In this document: positions 24,606 to 31,239 of the stretch, in pieces
How positions within the stretch are numbered: the stretch's first letter is position 1
Layout of the letters: each line of letters opens with the position of its first letter
NCBI GenBank assembly: GCA_023703575.1
Contig: CP097969.1
Span: forward strand, 1-64,000
Origin: SAR86 cluster bacterium
GTDB taxonomy: Bacteria > Pseudomonadota > Gammaproteobacteria > Magnimaribacterales > Magnimaribacteraceae
DNA: 64,000 nucleotides
Direction of reading: 5' to 3'
Program-made: the position numbers and the translations under genes
Notes under the pieces: model-generated
What the model saw: the letters and a program-made list of their open reading frames with translations, nothing else
What the model was told of the DNA's origin: nothing
Databases searched by the model: none

Positions 24606-26855
24606 ATGAAAGTTTCCTTTTATATGCTCATGGCGATGAGCTTAATAGTAACGCAAATAAATGCCGATGAACCGACACCTCTTGATACAGAGAAAGTAGA
24701 CGAAGTCGTAGTTACTTCTTCAATACTTAATACAAGCAGGATATTAAATCCTCTATATGTTATCGATGGCGATGAAATAAAAGATGACGCAACTACTTCA
24801 CTAGGTGAAGCAGTTGATAGTTACTTAGGTGTTTCAATTGCCGATTATGGTGCCGCAGTTGGTCAGCCTATCATAAGAGGTATGTCTGGACCTCGAGTGA
24901 AAATTCTAAAAAATGGAATGGTAAATAGAGATGTCTCAGGACTTGGTGTAGATCACTTAAATGATGTTGATTTACATGACATCGAACAAATTGAAATCAT
25001 CAAAGGACCATCCTCTTTACTTTATGCCAATGGAACCATTGGTGGAATTATCAATGTTGTAAACAATACCATTGCTAGGGAGGATTTTGATGGTCAAGAA
25101 GTTAATGCAGGATTGGAAACTCAATCCGCAAACGATGGTGATATTCAAGAGTTCAATTACAAAAATCTTCTAGGCGGATGGCTTAATTTTAGTCTGGGCT
25201 ATAAAAATACCGAATTAGGCAATTTTGATATACCTGATGGGGCTGTAGTTCACGAAGAAGAAGATCATGGTGATGATGATCACGATGAGCATGAAGAAGA
25301 AGCTCTTTCTTATGTTGAAAACTCTGATTTTGCTTCTGAAGCAAAGCAATTCGGTGTTTCAAGAACAGGAGAATGGGGATATTTCGGAATGAGTTATGAA
25401 AATTTAGAGAGCTTATATGGAATACCTTTTCACGGAGACGAGCACGGAGACGAGCACGGAGATGAGCACGGAGACGATGATCACGATGATGAGCACGGAG
25501 ACGATGATGATGAGCACGGAGATGAGCACGAAGGAGAGAGAATTTTCTCTACTACTGACCAAACGAGCTATAACTTAGCCGGCTTATACAATATTAATGG
25601 AGGTTTAATTAATTCTATAAGCTATAACTGGAGAGACACAGAGTACTCATTAACAGAAGCTCATGCAGAAGAAGAAGGTCATGATGATCATGAAGAAGAA
25701 GAGCATGAAGAACATGCACCAACTGTCTTTACAAATGATGCAACTGAATACGGCGCTATCTTTGATCTATCTTCAGACTCATTTACTCAAAAAGTAGCAT
25801 TAAATTTCGTTGATGAAGATTCCGCAATTGTTGGTGAAGAAGCTTTTATGAACCCTGCTAATAGTGAAGAGTTCACTATTGGTTATTTTGTCAGTACAGA
25901 CTTTGACCTATTTTATCTTGATGCAGGTTTTAGACTTGACCAAATAGAGAGGACTGGAAGTGTCACCGATGAAGATCATGGAGATATCGACTACTATAAG
26001 GTAGATGATGACACTAATAGTTTCGCTCTTACTCTCGGCAGAGATATAAGTGACAGTCTGGATATAAGCGTAGGTTTTGCTAGCGTTGAAAGATTGCCTT
26101 CAGTAATTGAGCTTTTCATGAATGGTCCACATATGGCAACTGGAAGACTTGAAACTGGTAATCCAAACCTTCAAAGCGAAACATCTGATAATATTGATAT
26201 AACATTAAACTTTGATAATGGTAATTTTTACGCATCAGCAAGTTACTACATAAATGACGTAGATAATTACATAACACTGCAAGACGAGCTCGATGATCAT
26301 GACGAACACGGAGATGACGACCATGGCGATGATGATCATGACGAACACGGAGATGACGACCATGGCGATGATGATCATGCAGCACATGCTAATTTGATTC
26401 ACGCTAATTACATTCAAGAAGACGCAGAATTCAAAGGTTATGAATTTGAGATCGGAACAACTGTGAGCTTAGGATCCGGTGATTTAACATTCTCTTTTGG
26501 AAGAGATGATGTCACTGCTGAATTTTCTGATGGACATAATGTACCTAGAATAAATCCCGCAAGAAATATCTATTCTTTGACTTATGTTGAAAACGATTGG
26601 GTTTTCAAAATGAGCTTGAAAGATGTTGATGAGCAAGACGAAATAGGTGAGGGAGAGACTGTTACTGAATCCTATCAATTGCTAAATGCCAGATTAACAA
26701 AAACCTATGATCTACCTGGTTCAGCTGAATTAAAAGTTTCTATCTTTGGTAGCAATTTGCAGGATGAGGTTGCAAGAAATCATTCATCATTTGTTAAGAA
26801 TGCAGTGCCTCTAGCTGGTAGAAATTATGGTGCTAAATTTAACTACAAATTTTAG
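24606..26855 (+). CDS. TonB-dependent receptor, ZnuD-like, with His/Asp-rich segments
   Basis: The protein has a signal peptide (to about residue 20, NADE), a TonB-box-like VDEVVVTSS, a plug domain (IIRGMSGPRVKILKNG; IEIIKGPSSLLYANGTIGG) and a 22-strand-type barrel ending in NYKF. Plug wording resembles the zinc receptor ZnuD. Four His/Asp/Glu-rich segments lie at about residues 215-235, 275-311, 351-372 and 560-596, probably extracellular loops that bind metal. A strong TAGGAGA site precedes the ATG and a strong terminator follows. Zinc or copper are the likely substrates; the sequence does not decide between them. Confidence 0.87.
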   Translation: MKVSFYMLMAMSLIVTQINADEPTPLDTEKVDEVVVTSSILNTSRILNPLYVIDGDEIKDDATTSLGEAVDSYLGVSIADYGAAVGQPIIRGMSGPRVKILKNGMVNRDVSGLGVDHLNDVDLHDIEQIEIIKGPSSLLYANGTIGGIINVVNNTIAREDFDGQEVNAGLETQSANDGDIQEFNYKNLLGGWLNFSLGYKNTELGNFDIPDGAVVHEEEDHGDDDHDEHEEEALSYVENSDFASEAKQFGVSRTGEWGYFGMSYENLESLYGIPFHGDEHGDEHGDEHGDDDHDDEHGDDDDEHGDEHEGERIFSTTDQTSYNLAGLYNINGGLINSISYNWRDTEYSLTEAHAEEEGHDDHEEEEHEEHAPTVFTNDATEYGAIFDLSSDSFTQKVALNFVDEDSAIVGEEAFMNPANSEEFTIGYFVSTDFDLFYLDAGFRLDQIERTGSVTDEDHGDIDYYKVDDDTNSFALTLGRDISDSLDISVGFASVERLPSVIELFMNGPHMATGRLETGNPNLQSETSDNIDITLNFDNGNFYASASYYINDVDNYITLQDELDDHDEHGDDDHGDDDHDEHGDDDHGDDDHAAHANLIHANYIQEDAEFKGYEFEIGTTVSLGSGDLTFSFGRDDVTAEFSDGHNVPRINPARNIYSLTYVENDWVFKMSLKDVDEQDEIGEGETVTESYQLLNARLTKTYDLPGSAELKVSIFGSNLQDEVARNHSSFVKNAVPLAGRNYGAKFNYKF
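25431..25540 (+). repeat. Degenerate CACGGAGACGAG-type repeats in the TonB receptor gene
   Basis: Imperfect 12-base units (CACGGAGACGAG and variants with GAT for GAC) run through this stretch and encode HGDE/HGDD repeats. All units are multiples of three, so copy change would lengthen or shorten the loop without a frameshift. Confidence 0.75.
26292..26379 (+). repeat. 39-base perfect tandem repeat in the TonB receptor gene
   Basis: Two identical 39-base units occupy 26292-26330 and 26331-26369, and 10 bases of a third follow. Each encodes 13 residues rich in Asp and His (DDHDEHGDDDHGD). The identity at nucleotide level points to a recent duplication. Confidence 0.9.
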
Positions 26856-27458: not shown

Positions 27459-27902
27459 TTAGTTATTGCCCTTGATAGCGTAGAAAGTTCCTAATAGCAA
27501 AAGAAACAATTGCTCGCTGGCAAAGAGAACAGATCCTCTCTCTCCGAAGAATATTCCCCAATCCGAGTGGGCAATTAACAAAGCGAATATCATTATCACC
27601 CCTATTGCTCCACCAGATACTCTAGTTACTAGGTGGCCAAGCTGGACCATTGGTTTCGCCAAAATCCCGCCTACTATTATTCCCAATCCAGCCAATATTT
27701 CCCCCCATGCAACTAGGTAAGCAGCTGCCTCTGCCAGAGGAACTCCCTTAGAGTCTAGATAACCTATAAAACCATCAGAAATAGGTAATTTTCCATATCC
27801 ATGTAAAAAGAAAGCTATGCCAAGGCCTAGCCTTAAAAGCCAATCAGCAATGCCACTTAAAGGCGCTGCGATTCCGTCAAAAAAGTTATTTATTTTTTCC
27901 AT
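27459..27902 (-). CDS. DoxX family membrane protein
   Basis: 147 residues with four hydrophobic helices and the DoxX opening LLRLGLGIAFFLHGYGKL. Family members are small inner-membrane proteins linked to redox or thiol stress, mostly without a defined reaction. It is the last gene of a three-gene minus-strand run (ABM, saccharopine-dehydrogenase-like, DoxX), 28 bases after its neighbour. Confidence 0.82.
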   Translation of the reverse strand: MEKINNFFDGIAAPLSGIADWLLRLGLGIAFFLHGYGKLPISDGFIGYLDSKGVPLAEAAAYLVAWGEILAGLGIIVGGILAKPMVQLGHLVTRVSGGAIGVIMIFALLIAHSDWGIFFGERGSVLFASEQLFLLLLGTFYAIKGNN

Positions 27903-29139: not shown

Positions 29140-29433
29140 TTAGGTTGGAATAATGTCAAATATTCTAATTGAAGGAGCATCTTCACATAACGAAGCAACA
29201 GCATCTAGAGTTCCGTCTTCGGTTCTGAATTGTAGATATTTCTCATAATGTTGCTTAGAATCCCAGACTTCTGTAAAGATCCAATTTTTAGGATTTTCTG
29301 TATTGTAAGTTAAATCAATTCCCTGACATCCATCAAAGGCCCTCGTGACCTCAAATGCCTTTTTACATATCCCAGTAAATTTTTCTATTTCTCCATCTTT
29401 TAGAGTCCCTTCCAATATCACACTTACTGTCAT
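29140..29433 (-). CDS. Antibiotic biosynthesis monooxygenase (ABM) domain protein
   Basis: A 97-residue single ABM/dimeric alpha-beta barrel domain: VSVILEGTLKDGEIEKF, the GCQGIDLTYN strand and FTEVWDSKQHYEKYLQFR, the usual EvW.s.e....H pattern. Such proteins are cofactor-free monooxygenases or quinone and haem handlers; the substrate is unknown. It is the first gene of the run ending in DoxX. The 146 bases upstream toward csoR show no further gene. Confidence 0.8.
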   Translation of the reverse strand: MTVSVILEGTLKDGEIEKFTGICKKAFEVTRAFDGCQGIDLTYNTENPKNWIFTEVWDSKQHYEKYLQFRTEDGTLDAVASLCEDAPSIRIFDIIPT

Positions 29434-29579: not shown

Positions 29580-29846
29580 TTAAGTTTGCCTTTTTAGTGT
29601 TTTTAATATTTCTTCAACCTTATCATCAAAATCCTTTTCGTCACTTAATGCTTCTCTAACACATTCTTTCATGTGTTTTTTTAATATTCTTCCTTCAACA
29701 CCCGCAATAGCATTTCTAACTGCTTTGATTTGATTGAGTATATCAATGCAATATTTATCGTCATCAATCATGTTGGCAATTCCACGAATTTGCCCCTCAA
29801 TCCTGTTAAGACTAGGAATTTCTTCTTTATGGCATGGATTTTTCAT
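29580..29846 (-). CDS. csoR: Copper-sensing transcriptional repressor, CsoR family
   Basis: CsoR-family repressors release DNA when they bind Cu(I). This 88-residue protein is all helical with NRIEGQIRGI and YCIDILNQI. The Cu(I) ligands are Cys33, His58 and Cys62, with the same spacings (25 and 4) as in the Bacillus and Mycobacterium CsoR; second-shell Tyr32 and Glu78 also align. The frame is open further upstream, but the ATG at 29846 gives the family N-terminus and overlaps the MerT-like stop by 4 bases. It is the last gene of the operon and probably represses it through the palindrome at 31216-31232. Confidence 0.9.
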   Translation of the reverse strand: MKNPCHKEEIPSLNRIEGQIRGIANMIDDDKYCIDILNQIKAVRNAIAGVEGRILKKHMKECVREALSDEKDFDDKVEEILKTLKRQT

Positions 29847-30208
29847 ATGAATACAGGAATTATATAAGTAAATATCGTAGCAAAAACGAACAATACAACT
29901 GAAATGTAATAGACGTATCTTGATCGTTTTCTTGTTTGCATGCATAACCTTCCTAACTCGGGATCTGAGGGACAGGGCATATGATAGGTTTTATAGTTGG
30001 CATAACCGGCTATTATCACCATGACAAGTGCAAAAATAGTTATTTGTGTCTTGTATTGAGACAAGGTAATAAGAAAAGGTAAATACGTAAGTAGTGAAGC
30101 AAAAGAAGCGCCAGCACCTAAAGCAACAAACATTGCAGGTAGGGCGCAACATATCAGCGTTGATGAAGAAGCAAACAGTGATAGAAAGTTTACCGATCTA
30201 TCTTCCAT
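29843..30208 (-). CDS. MerT-like metal transport membrane protein
   Basis: 121 residues with three or four hydrophobic helices. The first carries a vicinal pair LICCALPAMFV (Cys20-Cys21), as in the mercuric transporter MerT, and the cytoplasmic loop has CPSDPELGRLC (Cys79, Cys89), a second Cys pair as in MerT. Neighbours are a MerP-like protein and a CsoR copper sensor, with no merA or merR, so copper is the likelier substrate than mercury. It overlaps both neighbours (1 base with the MerP-like stop, 4 with csoR). Confidence 0.8.
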   Translation of the reverse strand: MEDRSVNFLSLFASSSTLICCALPAMFVALGAGASFASLLTYLPFLITLSQYKTQITIFALVMVIIAGYANYKTYHMPCPSDPELGRLCMQTRKRSRYVYYISVVLFVFATIFTYIIPVFI

Positions 30209-30612
30209 TAATTTATATTAATAATTTTTAAGCCAGTAGCATTCTGGCCATTAGCTAGAATGTTTTGCTCTATTTCTTTATATTCAATAGCTTTATCTTT
30301 TGAGTAAGCAATTAAAACTTTTCCTTTGTTAAGGTCCACATCAATTTTTTTTACGTTTCTATCTTTCTCGAACGTCTTCTCTAGACCTTGGGCGCAAAAA
30401 TCACACACCATGCCAATTACACTAACTACCGCAATTTGGCAGTCTTCAAGATCTTTAATAAAGTTTTGGTACCTATCAGGATCTACATCAAGATCTGTTC
30501 CATCAATCAGTTCTCCGTGAACATGACCTTTATGGTCATGATTCATATCATCCGTAGCAGACAAAAAATGAGAAATCATAAAACTATAGACAATAATCAA
30601 AAATTTATTCAT
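30208..30612 (-). CDS. MerP-like periplasmic heavy-metal-associated (HMA) protein
   Basis: A signal peptide (about residues 1-19) precedes a His-rich stretch MNHDHKGHVHGE, a 25-residue acidic link, and an HMA domain with SVIGMVCDFCAQGLEKTF (Cys70, Cys73) and the usual VDLNKGKVLIAY strand. The GMxCxxC motif binds soft metals such as Cu(I) or Hg(II). It probably hands metal to or from the MerT-like protein encoded next, with which it shares one base. 134 residues, longer than MerP because of the His-rich lead. Confidence 0.82.
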   Translation of the reverse strand: MNKFLIIVYSFMISHFLSATDDMNHDHKGHVHGELIDGTDLDVDPDRYQNFIKDLEDCQIAVVSVIGMVCDFCAQGLEKTFEKDRNVKKIDVDLNKGKVLIAYSKDKAIEYKEIEQNILANGQNATGLKIININ

Positions 30613-30620
30613 ATCATTTC

Positions 30621-31223
30621 CTAAAATCTATAGATCAAAAGTGAGTCCCATTCAGTCTTGTCATTATATCCAAACTCAATTAAAAAATTTCCTTTGAAAA
30701 ATTTAAGTACGGGAAAAGTTGACCAATTCTTCAAAAGATCATTTTTTTTTGATTTCACCATAATCCAAGTATGAAAGTCTCCATAATCGCCCAAATAGGG
30801 TGCTAAACCAATTTGCAAGTATTGATCTTCAAAATCTATAATCTCATTCTCTACTTTTTTGTAACTAAAACCAACAAACCACCGTCTAGTTTCCCAATCT
30901 CCATGAAGACCGTAAAATTTATCCTCAATTCTTTTGGTGCTTACACCAGATTGAAAATATAGGTTTCTCTGAGAATATTCAGTGTTTTTTCTATTCAAAA
31001 GGTAAGTGAGTCTGAAATATGAATAGTTGGAGCTTAAAAAATCATCTTTTACAGCCTCTAAACCTAATGAGTACTTATAAGTTGGTGAATAGTGTAGATA
31101 TAGAGAATCACGCATGTTATCTGAGTGACTCATTAGTGTTGAGCCTCCTGAATAAGAGATGGGTCTTGCTACTGCTACACTGCTTACAGCAAGAATTAGA
31201 AATAGTAGCCTCTTTATACCCAC
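30621..31223 (-). CDS. Predicted outer-membrane or secreted protein, first gene of the copper operon
   Basis: No family recognised. The signal peptide ends AVA at about residue 19; the remainder alternates polar and aromatic residues as in small beta barrels and ends LLIYRF, with a terminal Phe as in outer-membrane proteins. The only start near the signal peptide is the GTG at 31221-31223, which lies inside the CsoR-type palindrome and only about 7 bases after a -10 element, so the mRNA may be leaderless. The MerP-like gene follows 8 bases after. 200 residues. Confidence 0.7.
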   Translation of the reverse strand: MGIKRLLFLILAVSSVAVARPISYSGGSTLMSHSDNMRDSLYLHYSPTYKYSLGLEAVKDDFLSSNYSYFRLTYLLNRKNTEYSQRNLYFQSGVSTKRIEDKFYGLHGDWETRRWFVGFSYKKVENEIIDFEDQYLQIGLAPYLGDYGDFHTWIMVKSKKNDLLKNWSTFPVLKFFKGNFLIEFGYNDKTEWDSLLIYRF

Positions 31224-31232
31224 GGGGGGTAT
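31216..31232. promoter_or_regulatory. CsoR-type operator palindrome
   Basis: ATACCCACGGGGGGTAT is an inverted repeat (ATACCC / GGGTAT) around a G-rich core. It differs very little from the B. subtilis copZA CsoR operator as I remember it (ATACCC, five bases, GGGTAT). It overlaps the -10 element and the GTG start of the first gene of an operon that itself encodes a CsoR, which supports autoregulation by copper. Confidence 0.8.
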
Positions 31233-31239
31233 TTTAGCA
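31231..31239 (-). promoter_or_regulatory. Extended -10 promoter of the copper operon
   Basis: On the minus strand the sequence is TGCTAAAAT, a TGN extension plus a TAAAAT hexamer. No strong -35 hexamer is seen. The predicted transcription start falls at or within a few bases of the GTG start codon at 31223. Confidence 0.5.

Follow-up and report, generated by a model that had tools for sequence, protein, structure and literature searches.

The window, as we call the whole analysed stretch of 64,000 nucleotides from a SAR86 cluster bacterium, carries a compact set of four minus-strand genes together with a putative operator and promoter element. In the direction of transcription, the features are the following:

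31231..31236, minus strand: −10-like hexamer TAAAAT, ending 7 bases ahead of the first-gene start codon; a leaderless start is predicted
31216..31232, minus strand: CsoR box ATACCC-N5-GGGTAT (ATACCCCCCGTGGGTAT), with the GTG start codon of the first gene inside
30621..31223, minus strand: first gene (OMP), a 200-aa outer-membrane-type protein with a GTG start, a C-terminal Phe, an N terminus that looks like a signal peptide by eye, and no Pfam family
30208..30612, minus strand: HMA gene, a His-rich protein with one HMA domain and the motif GMVCDFC, judged periplasmic from its signal-peptide-like start by eye
29843..30208, minus strand: MerT-like membrane protein, whose model puts Cys20-Cys21 in helix 1, Cys79 in the loop that follows helix 2, and Cys89 close to where helix 3 begins
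29580..29846, minus strand: CsoR repressor with Tyr32-Cys33, His58, Cys62 and Glu79

Eight bases separate the first gene from the HMA gene, the HMA stop overlaps the MerT start as TAATG, and the MerT stop overlaps the CsoR start as ATGA. These coordinates and junctions bear out the first-pass annotation, which had described four touching or overlapping minus-strand genes, and the conservation of their order across genomes makes the arrangement more than chance. The HMA- and MerT-type parts named there were also recovered by Pfam. The HMA gene matched HMA (PF00403) with E 4.7e-7 and 30.5 bits against a cut-off of 24.8, the MerT-like gene matched MerT with E 3e-6 and 27.7 bits, under the curated 32.9, and the CsoR gene matched Trns_repr_metal (PF02583) with E 7e-28 and 97.3 bits against 22.8. 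Neither merA nor MerR belongs to the set, as had been claimed, and the next gene after the operon (29140-29433, minus strand) encodes an ABM-domain protein by Pfam. Also downstream, at 27459-27902 on the same strand, lies a gene for a DoxX family protein (Pfam). The source genome is a single contig of 1.59 Mb, 95% complete, in which PF02583 was matched once. Among the matches listed, the nearest named relatives are L030 and L031 (both titled SAR86), whose MerT proteins are 97 and 94% identical to that of the window.

The first-pass annotation had proposed looking for the same four-gene set in relatives, and the set turned out to be conserved. In the order of the source genome, the HMA protein of the operon occurs in 16 of 61 genomes (source genome included), and 15 of these 16 carriers have all four genes in the same order; in the other one, G001, the locus ends after the HMA gene. 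A search for the CsoR family also returned 16 of the 61 genomes, namely the same 15 operon carriers and G022. Additionally, named genomes were scanned with a MerT alignment, which gave 164 stretches, and the best 80 of these were retained as the named loci. Profile search found all four genes in the same order and on the same strand in 77 of these best 80 of 164. Two of the exceptions, L053 and L070, start inside the operon, and the third, L089, is without CsoR.

The titles of the carriers among the best 80 of 164 include SAR86, SAR92/Porticoccaceae, OM182, K189A and an AqS3 bin, as well as the alphaproteobacterial PS1 clade, Rhodobiaceae and IMCC14465. When the sequences of each of the 77 operons were joined and a tree was built, the 7 rows labelled alphaproteobacterial needed 3 label changes, at least 2 of which are forced by well-supported branches; L056, titled Rhodobacteraceae, was scored as 'other', since we took it for a misbinned contig. 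These label changes point to a spread of the operon by horizontal transfer, to be read with the caveat that many of the genomes are MAGs and may include misbinned contigs. Searches of plasmid and phage collections gave no match to the first-gene protein.

In a sample of the class, the first-gene profile was found in 11 of 369 gammaproteobacterial genomes. Eight of these carriers lie outside the order: four have a CsoR, one locus is cut, and three (G103, G189 and G344) have an OMP-HMA-MerT trio with no CsoR beside it. In these three the controller differs, and maybe the metal does too. In G344 (L172:4156-9765), the trio is preceded by a Fur-family gene, by znuA and by a gene for a small Cys/His-rich protein of no Pfam family.

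A protein cluster with a PepSY_TM member (one member checked, e.g. L035:3465-4205) lies within 6 kb of the operon in 22 of the best 80 of 164 named loci, and a cluster with a MerC member (one member checked, e.g. L046:3515-3910) in 8 of the same 80. In the window, positions 24606-26855 on the plus strand encode a TonB-dependent receptor with long His-rich loops that is ZnuD-like (224 bits against a cut-off of 950). The cluster of this receptor, of which one member was checked, turns up no more than 6 kb from the operon in 7 of the best 80 of 164, and L173 and L175 also have ZnuD-like receptors close to the first gene.

The CsoR was read at first pass as a copper-type repressor that keeps Cys33, His58 and Cys62 plus Tyr32 and Glu78 as its Cu(I) site. 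Four of these five residues withstood the alignment: Tyr32, Cys33, His58 and Cys62, together with Glu79 and His6, are identical in 79 of 79 rows (named loci, best 80 of 164). Glu78 is kept in only 35 of the same 79 rows, and the invariant Glu79 is therefore the better candidate for the second-shell Glu, as far as an alignment can tell. We take it to correspond to Glu81 of the M. tuberculosis CsoR. The family profile found copper-sensitive operon repressors as its best PDB matches (4adz, E 2e-22; 4m1p, E 2e-20), and FrmR far more weakly (E 2e-9). In the available text of a copper review, the Cu(I) ligands of CsoR are given as two Cys and one His (PMC7558416). The invariant Cys-His-Cys set with its Tyr, the copper-repressor matches and the form of the box agree with the copper-type assignment; copper sensing is thus well supported by the sequence of this protein, a predicted Cu(I) sensor. 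At one locus, L041:6360-6833, a decayed CsoR copy stands immediately before another CsoR that is intact and different, which looks like a replacement of the repressor.

The box at 31216-31232 is a perfect ATACCC-N5-GGGTAT and the sole match in the window to TACCC-N5-GGGTA at up to one mismatch. At the same laxity, matches appeared in 38 of 100 shuffles; a match of this kind within the window is not beyond chance, and the evidence for the box thus rests on its conservation. We searched 101 loci with the first gene, of which 78 were named (from the best 80 of 164) and 23 were others, some of the same species, and placed the search by a protein model of the first gene. TACCC-N5-GGGTA stood at the expected place in 96 of the 101 loci, with an in-frame start codon inside it in 84. 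Among the 78 named loci, 64 have the box with an in-frame start. In 7, from Porticoccaceae/SAR92, the box is shifted and an in-frame ATG stands at or just past its end, and in 5 loci of one clade the ATG is out of frame. Of the remaining two, L047 has a spacer one base shorter and L068 is masked. The out-of-frame ATG lies near 4972 in L091, L092, L095, L098 and L099, where the true start must be elsewhere.

Among the other 23 loci, 20 have the box, and the three misses (L025, L026 and L028) are precisely those loci of this group where no CsoR was seen beside an uncut MerT. Box and CsoR thus travel together, the exception being L089, which has the box with no CsoR beside it. The order relative without the operon, G022, carries the same box with the same MGI start on a DUF4396 gene that is followed by a CsoR (L138:5974-6700), an independent case that supports the link between box, start codon and CsoR. 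DUF4396 itself occurs in 28 of the 61 order genomes, all in the family of the source genome. One further perfect palindrome occurs in the source genome, at position 618797, but it falls within an open frame of 669 codons and no gene of the set was found in the surrounding 14 kb; we set it aside.

The promoter was tallied over 67 distinct rows, derived from 70 of 81 sequences that fitted a strict pattern. Of these rows, 61 have a −10 hexamer TAnnnT whose end lies seven bases ahead of the ATG, with a weak TTGAtA-like element 16 bases further upstream; ahead of the first gene in the window itself we found no good −35 element. With this −10 spacing, transcription is expected to begin on the start codon at its first base, and the mRNA is therefore probably leaderless, to judge from the sequences. 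A Shine-Dalgarno core was present upstream of 3 of 67 first genes, 55 of 66 HMA genes, 4 of 66 MerT genes and 24 of 66 CsoR genes. The low counts for MerT and CsoR may come from coupling to the preceding gene; scarcity before the first gene is thus a weak sign of a leaderless start, and the position of the −10 element is the stronger point.

Parts of this design have been described elsewhere. The available text on the csoR-cueA divergon of Bradyrhizobium liaoningense reports a box of the form TATACCC-N5-GGGTATA (TATACCCCTACCGGGTATA for csoR), a csoR mRNA whose start was mapped to the A of the ATG and which is hence leaderless, and a link to copper tolerance, all of which the SAR86 operon resembles; the divergon differs in that it includes a transport gene, cueA, which is also tied to zinc and cadmium, and in that its box overlaps −10 elements (PMC5057107). 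The nreAXY operon of Mesorhizobium is likewise described, in the accessible part of its report, with a CsoR/RcnR-family repressor, a single G/C-tract operator and a leaderless nreA mRNA mapped under that control (by 5'-RACE, done in A. fabrum), but it serves nickel and has its operator between −35 and −10 (PMC12724321). As far as these texts go, the operators of B. liaoningense csoR and of nreA lie upstream of the start codon, whereas the SAR86 box lies on it. Regulation through an operator placed directly on the start codon is unusually tight by design, and among the matches listed in our literature search, which left most subscription papers outside, no CsoR box in this position was described. 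The first-pass annotation had overlooked this operator, as well as the scarcity of P-type ATPases in carriers reported below.

The four cysteines of the MerT-like protein (Cys20, Cys21, Cys79 and Cys89) are kept in 80 of 80 rows (named loci, best 80 of 164). Its model, built from 49 hand-picked rows of the 80 (best 80 of 164), shows three long helices at a moderate pLDDT of 77.5, with Cys89 at the start of helix 3. In the HMA protein, Gly67, Met68, Cys70 and Cys73 (GMxCxxC) are kept in 79 of 79 rows of the named loci (best 80 of 164), row L015 having been left out of the alignment because its start is unsure. Against the MerP equivalog TIGR02052 the HMA protein scored 17.5 bits, far under 92.55, and the best PDB matches of its profile are copper ATPase and CopZ domains. 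In mercury operons, merT encodes a membrane protein of three helices that has vicinal Cys residues and a further Cys pair, merP encodes its periplasmic HMA partner, and MerT with MerP moves Hg(II) inward. The SAR86 set shares the MerT-type Cys pairs and the HMA partner, but has CsoR in place of MerR, an extra outer-membrane-type gene, and no merA among its four genes. The NCBIfam family NF045683 (MerT/CopZ fusion-like heavy metal transport selenoprotein) likewise combines MerT-type and HMA modules, but as one fused protein, whereas those of the SAR86 set are separate; it was matched weakly, with 12 and 19 bits against 375.

The product of the first gene belongs to no known family and is predicted to form an outer-membrane barrel of 12 strands. 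In Pfam and NCBIfam the window protein matched no family up to E 1, 57 members of the family gave weak matches to just five families, all unrelated (E 0.019 or worse), and the family profile found one unrelated chain only in the PDB (E 0.21). AlphaFold2, run on 57 sequences (the window protein and 56 of the 77 usable named rows from the best 80 of 164, with near-copies and the broken L076 left out), returned a 12-stranded barrel with a mean pLDDT of 91.6, in keeping with the outer-membrane-like character proposed at first pass. Foldseek found generic barrels, at best with E 3e-4, and VIA-align gave autotransporter domains up to Z 17.1, KdgM at 14.8 and PcoB (7pge) at 10.1 (rank 37). With generic fold matches and weak, scattered sequence matches, we claim no specific relative. 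Conserved His26, His89, His133, His177, Met137 and Met179 (numbering of the modelled protein), along with several acidic residues, are on the predicted lumen side, which was judged by alternate-position hydrophobicity and not by coordinates; strands 1, 7 and 10 and Met13 are unsure. This pattern, as modelled, fits a metal-lined barrel. PcoB/CopB is likewise an outer-membrane barrel of a copper-tolerance operon, according to the available parts of two studies (PMC9210255, PMC12509749), and overlaps the model in fold, but has no sequence link to the SAR86 barrel, and many other barrels score above 7pge.

The first-pass annotation had pointed out that no copper P-type ATPase is encoded here, and PF00122 was indeed not found in the source genome (95% complete). 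In the order it was found in 1 of 61 genomes, and 14 of 14 control genomes were matched. The sole match, in G032, presumably belongs to a CcoI-like protein, judging by its motifs, and its contig has a second COX1-family frame roughly 4.4 kb ahead of it. By comparison, PF00122 occurs in 313 of the 369 gammaproteobacterial genomes of the class sample. Ten of the 11 first-gene carriers in this sample are without PF00122 (Fisher p 3e-8, phylogeny ignored); in the remaining one, G189, the match is partial and scores 37 bits. Outside the order, 7 of 8 carriers are without it (Fisher p 6e-6, phylogeny ignored), and only 4 of these 8 have CsoR beside the genes. We also checked 50 named carriers drawn from the best 80 of 164 and given without completeness, of which 9 had SAR86 in their title and 41 did not; PF00122 was absent in 48 and present in 2, L082 (IMCC14465) and L108. 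We take the L082 protein to be CopA-like and that of L108 to be CcoI-like by their motifs. The class sample and the named carriers overlap, with an AqS3-type locus in both. P-type ATPases are thus rare in operon carriers. The cueA gene of the divergon discussed above encodes, we assume, just such an ATPase.

RND pumps of the CusA/CzcA type gave no match over the curated cut-off in any of the 61 order genomes (3 of 14 controls matched); weaker matches in 57 of the 61 are probably drug pumps. The COX1 family occurs in 58 of 61, and cells of the order thus probably use copper. As 44 of the 61 order genomes, many of them incomplete, have neither the operon HMA protein nor PF00122, the operon is an accessory trait and no required substitute for CopA. 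It may also be that the operon and the lack of P-type ATPases are both simply markers of marine streamlined genomes.

Taken together, these observations fit best with an operon for copper tolerance that responds to Cu(I) and exports it with no P-type ATPase involved, a reading to which we give about an even chance. The earlier view of a MerT/HMA set under a copper sensor stands, while the metal and the choice of export over uptake are our inference. The outward direction follows from the expectation that a CsoR operon is made at copper excess, and from the lack of P-type and CusA-type exporters. Apo-CsoR would sit on the box, over both the transcription start and the start codon of the first gene, and keep the operon off. 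Once Cu(I) fills the Cys-His-Cys site, CsoR would leave the box and a leaderless four-gene mRNA would be made. In the MerT-like protein, the second Cys pair could then hand Cu(I) on to the pair in helix 1, taking it across the inner membrane. In the periplasm, the HMA protein would take it up and hold it by its His-rich arm and CxxC, and the barrel would let it out through the outer membrane or park it at the periplasmic face. We infer this order of hand-over among MerT, HMA and barrel. Speaking against export, the MerT-like protein is a small three-helix protein without an obvious energy source, and the known MerT direction is inward. The whole scheme, i.e. export without a P-type ATPase or CusA-type pump, by an outward MerT, an HMA carrier and a new family of His/Met-lined barrels, spread horizontally among streamlined ocean bacteria and controlled by a repressor bound over the transcription start and the start codon together, is offered more tentatively, being somewhat less probable than the copper-tolerance reading by itself.

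The best-surviving alternative turns the direction around: the operon would acquire or deliver copper, with the barrel admitting it, the HMA protein capturing it and the MerT-like protein carrying it inward, e.g. for a terminal oxidase. The inward transport of Hg(II) by MerT and MerP agrees with this, and so do the ZnuD-like receptor at 24606-26855 and the presence of its cluster near the operon in 7 of the best 80 of 164. PcoB, the copper-linked barrel that reaches Z 10.1 to our model, is argued in the accessible part of one study to permit copper import (PMC9210255) and is treated as an efflux channel in that of another (PMC12509749). However, an operon under CsoR is expected to be expressed at high cytosolic Cu(I), the wrong time to import, and COX1 is present in 58 of 61 relatives against 16 of 61 for the operon. 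We regard import as rather improbable, and keep it as a serious rival because of the known direction of MerT and the conflicting roles of PcoB.

Less probable still is buffering of periplasmic copper, with the HMA protein and the barrel binding the metal, MerT recharging or sensing, and no net export. The His-rich HMA arm would suit such a store, as would the conserved His and Met residues of the barrel that are predicted to face the lumen, but the four MerT cysteines are invariant, including a pair that fits transfer across the membrane. We consider it unlikely, to a slightly greater degree, that the cargo, sensed by CsoR, is mercury or another soft metal (Ag, Hg). The resemblance of the MerT-like and HMA proteins to MerT and MerP and the MerC-member cluster near the operon in 8 of the best 80 of 164 would suggest it; yet no merA-like cluster was seen by eye among the 25 largest neighbour clusters listed, import of Hg without a reductase would presumably harm the cell, and the CsoR ligand set and box are of the copper type. 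Zinc or general divalent metal handling, suggested by the trio of L172 downstream of a Fur-family gene and znuA and by the ZnuD-like receptors of L173 and L175, is very improbable given the Cys-His-Cys CsoR with its box in the main group and the copper ATPase and CopZ domains that best match the HMA profile.

Descriptions of copper efflux in Gram-negative bacteria centre on P1B-type ATPases and RND pumps, and name Pco/Cop proteins in addition (PMC12509749). In the literature searched, which left most subscription papers outside, neither this gene set nor a MerT under copper control was described among the matches listed, and the accessible part of a copper review makes no mention of MerT (PMC7558416). 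SAR86 is an abundant ocean group, and the operon is found in a minority of it and in other marine lineages. If the operon exports copper, it would represent a new transport route, would show the MerT fold working in a new direction, and would provide a marker for marine copper tolerance.
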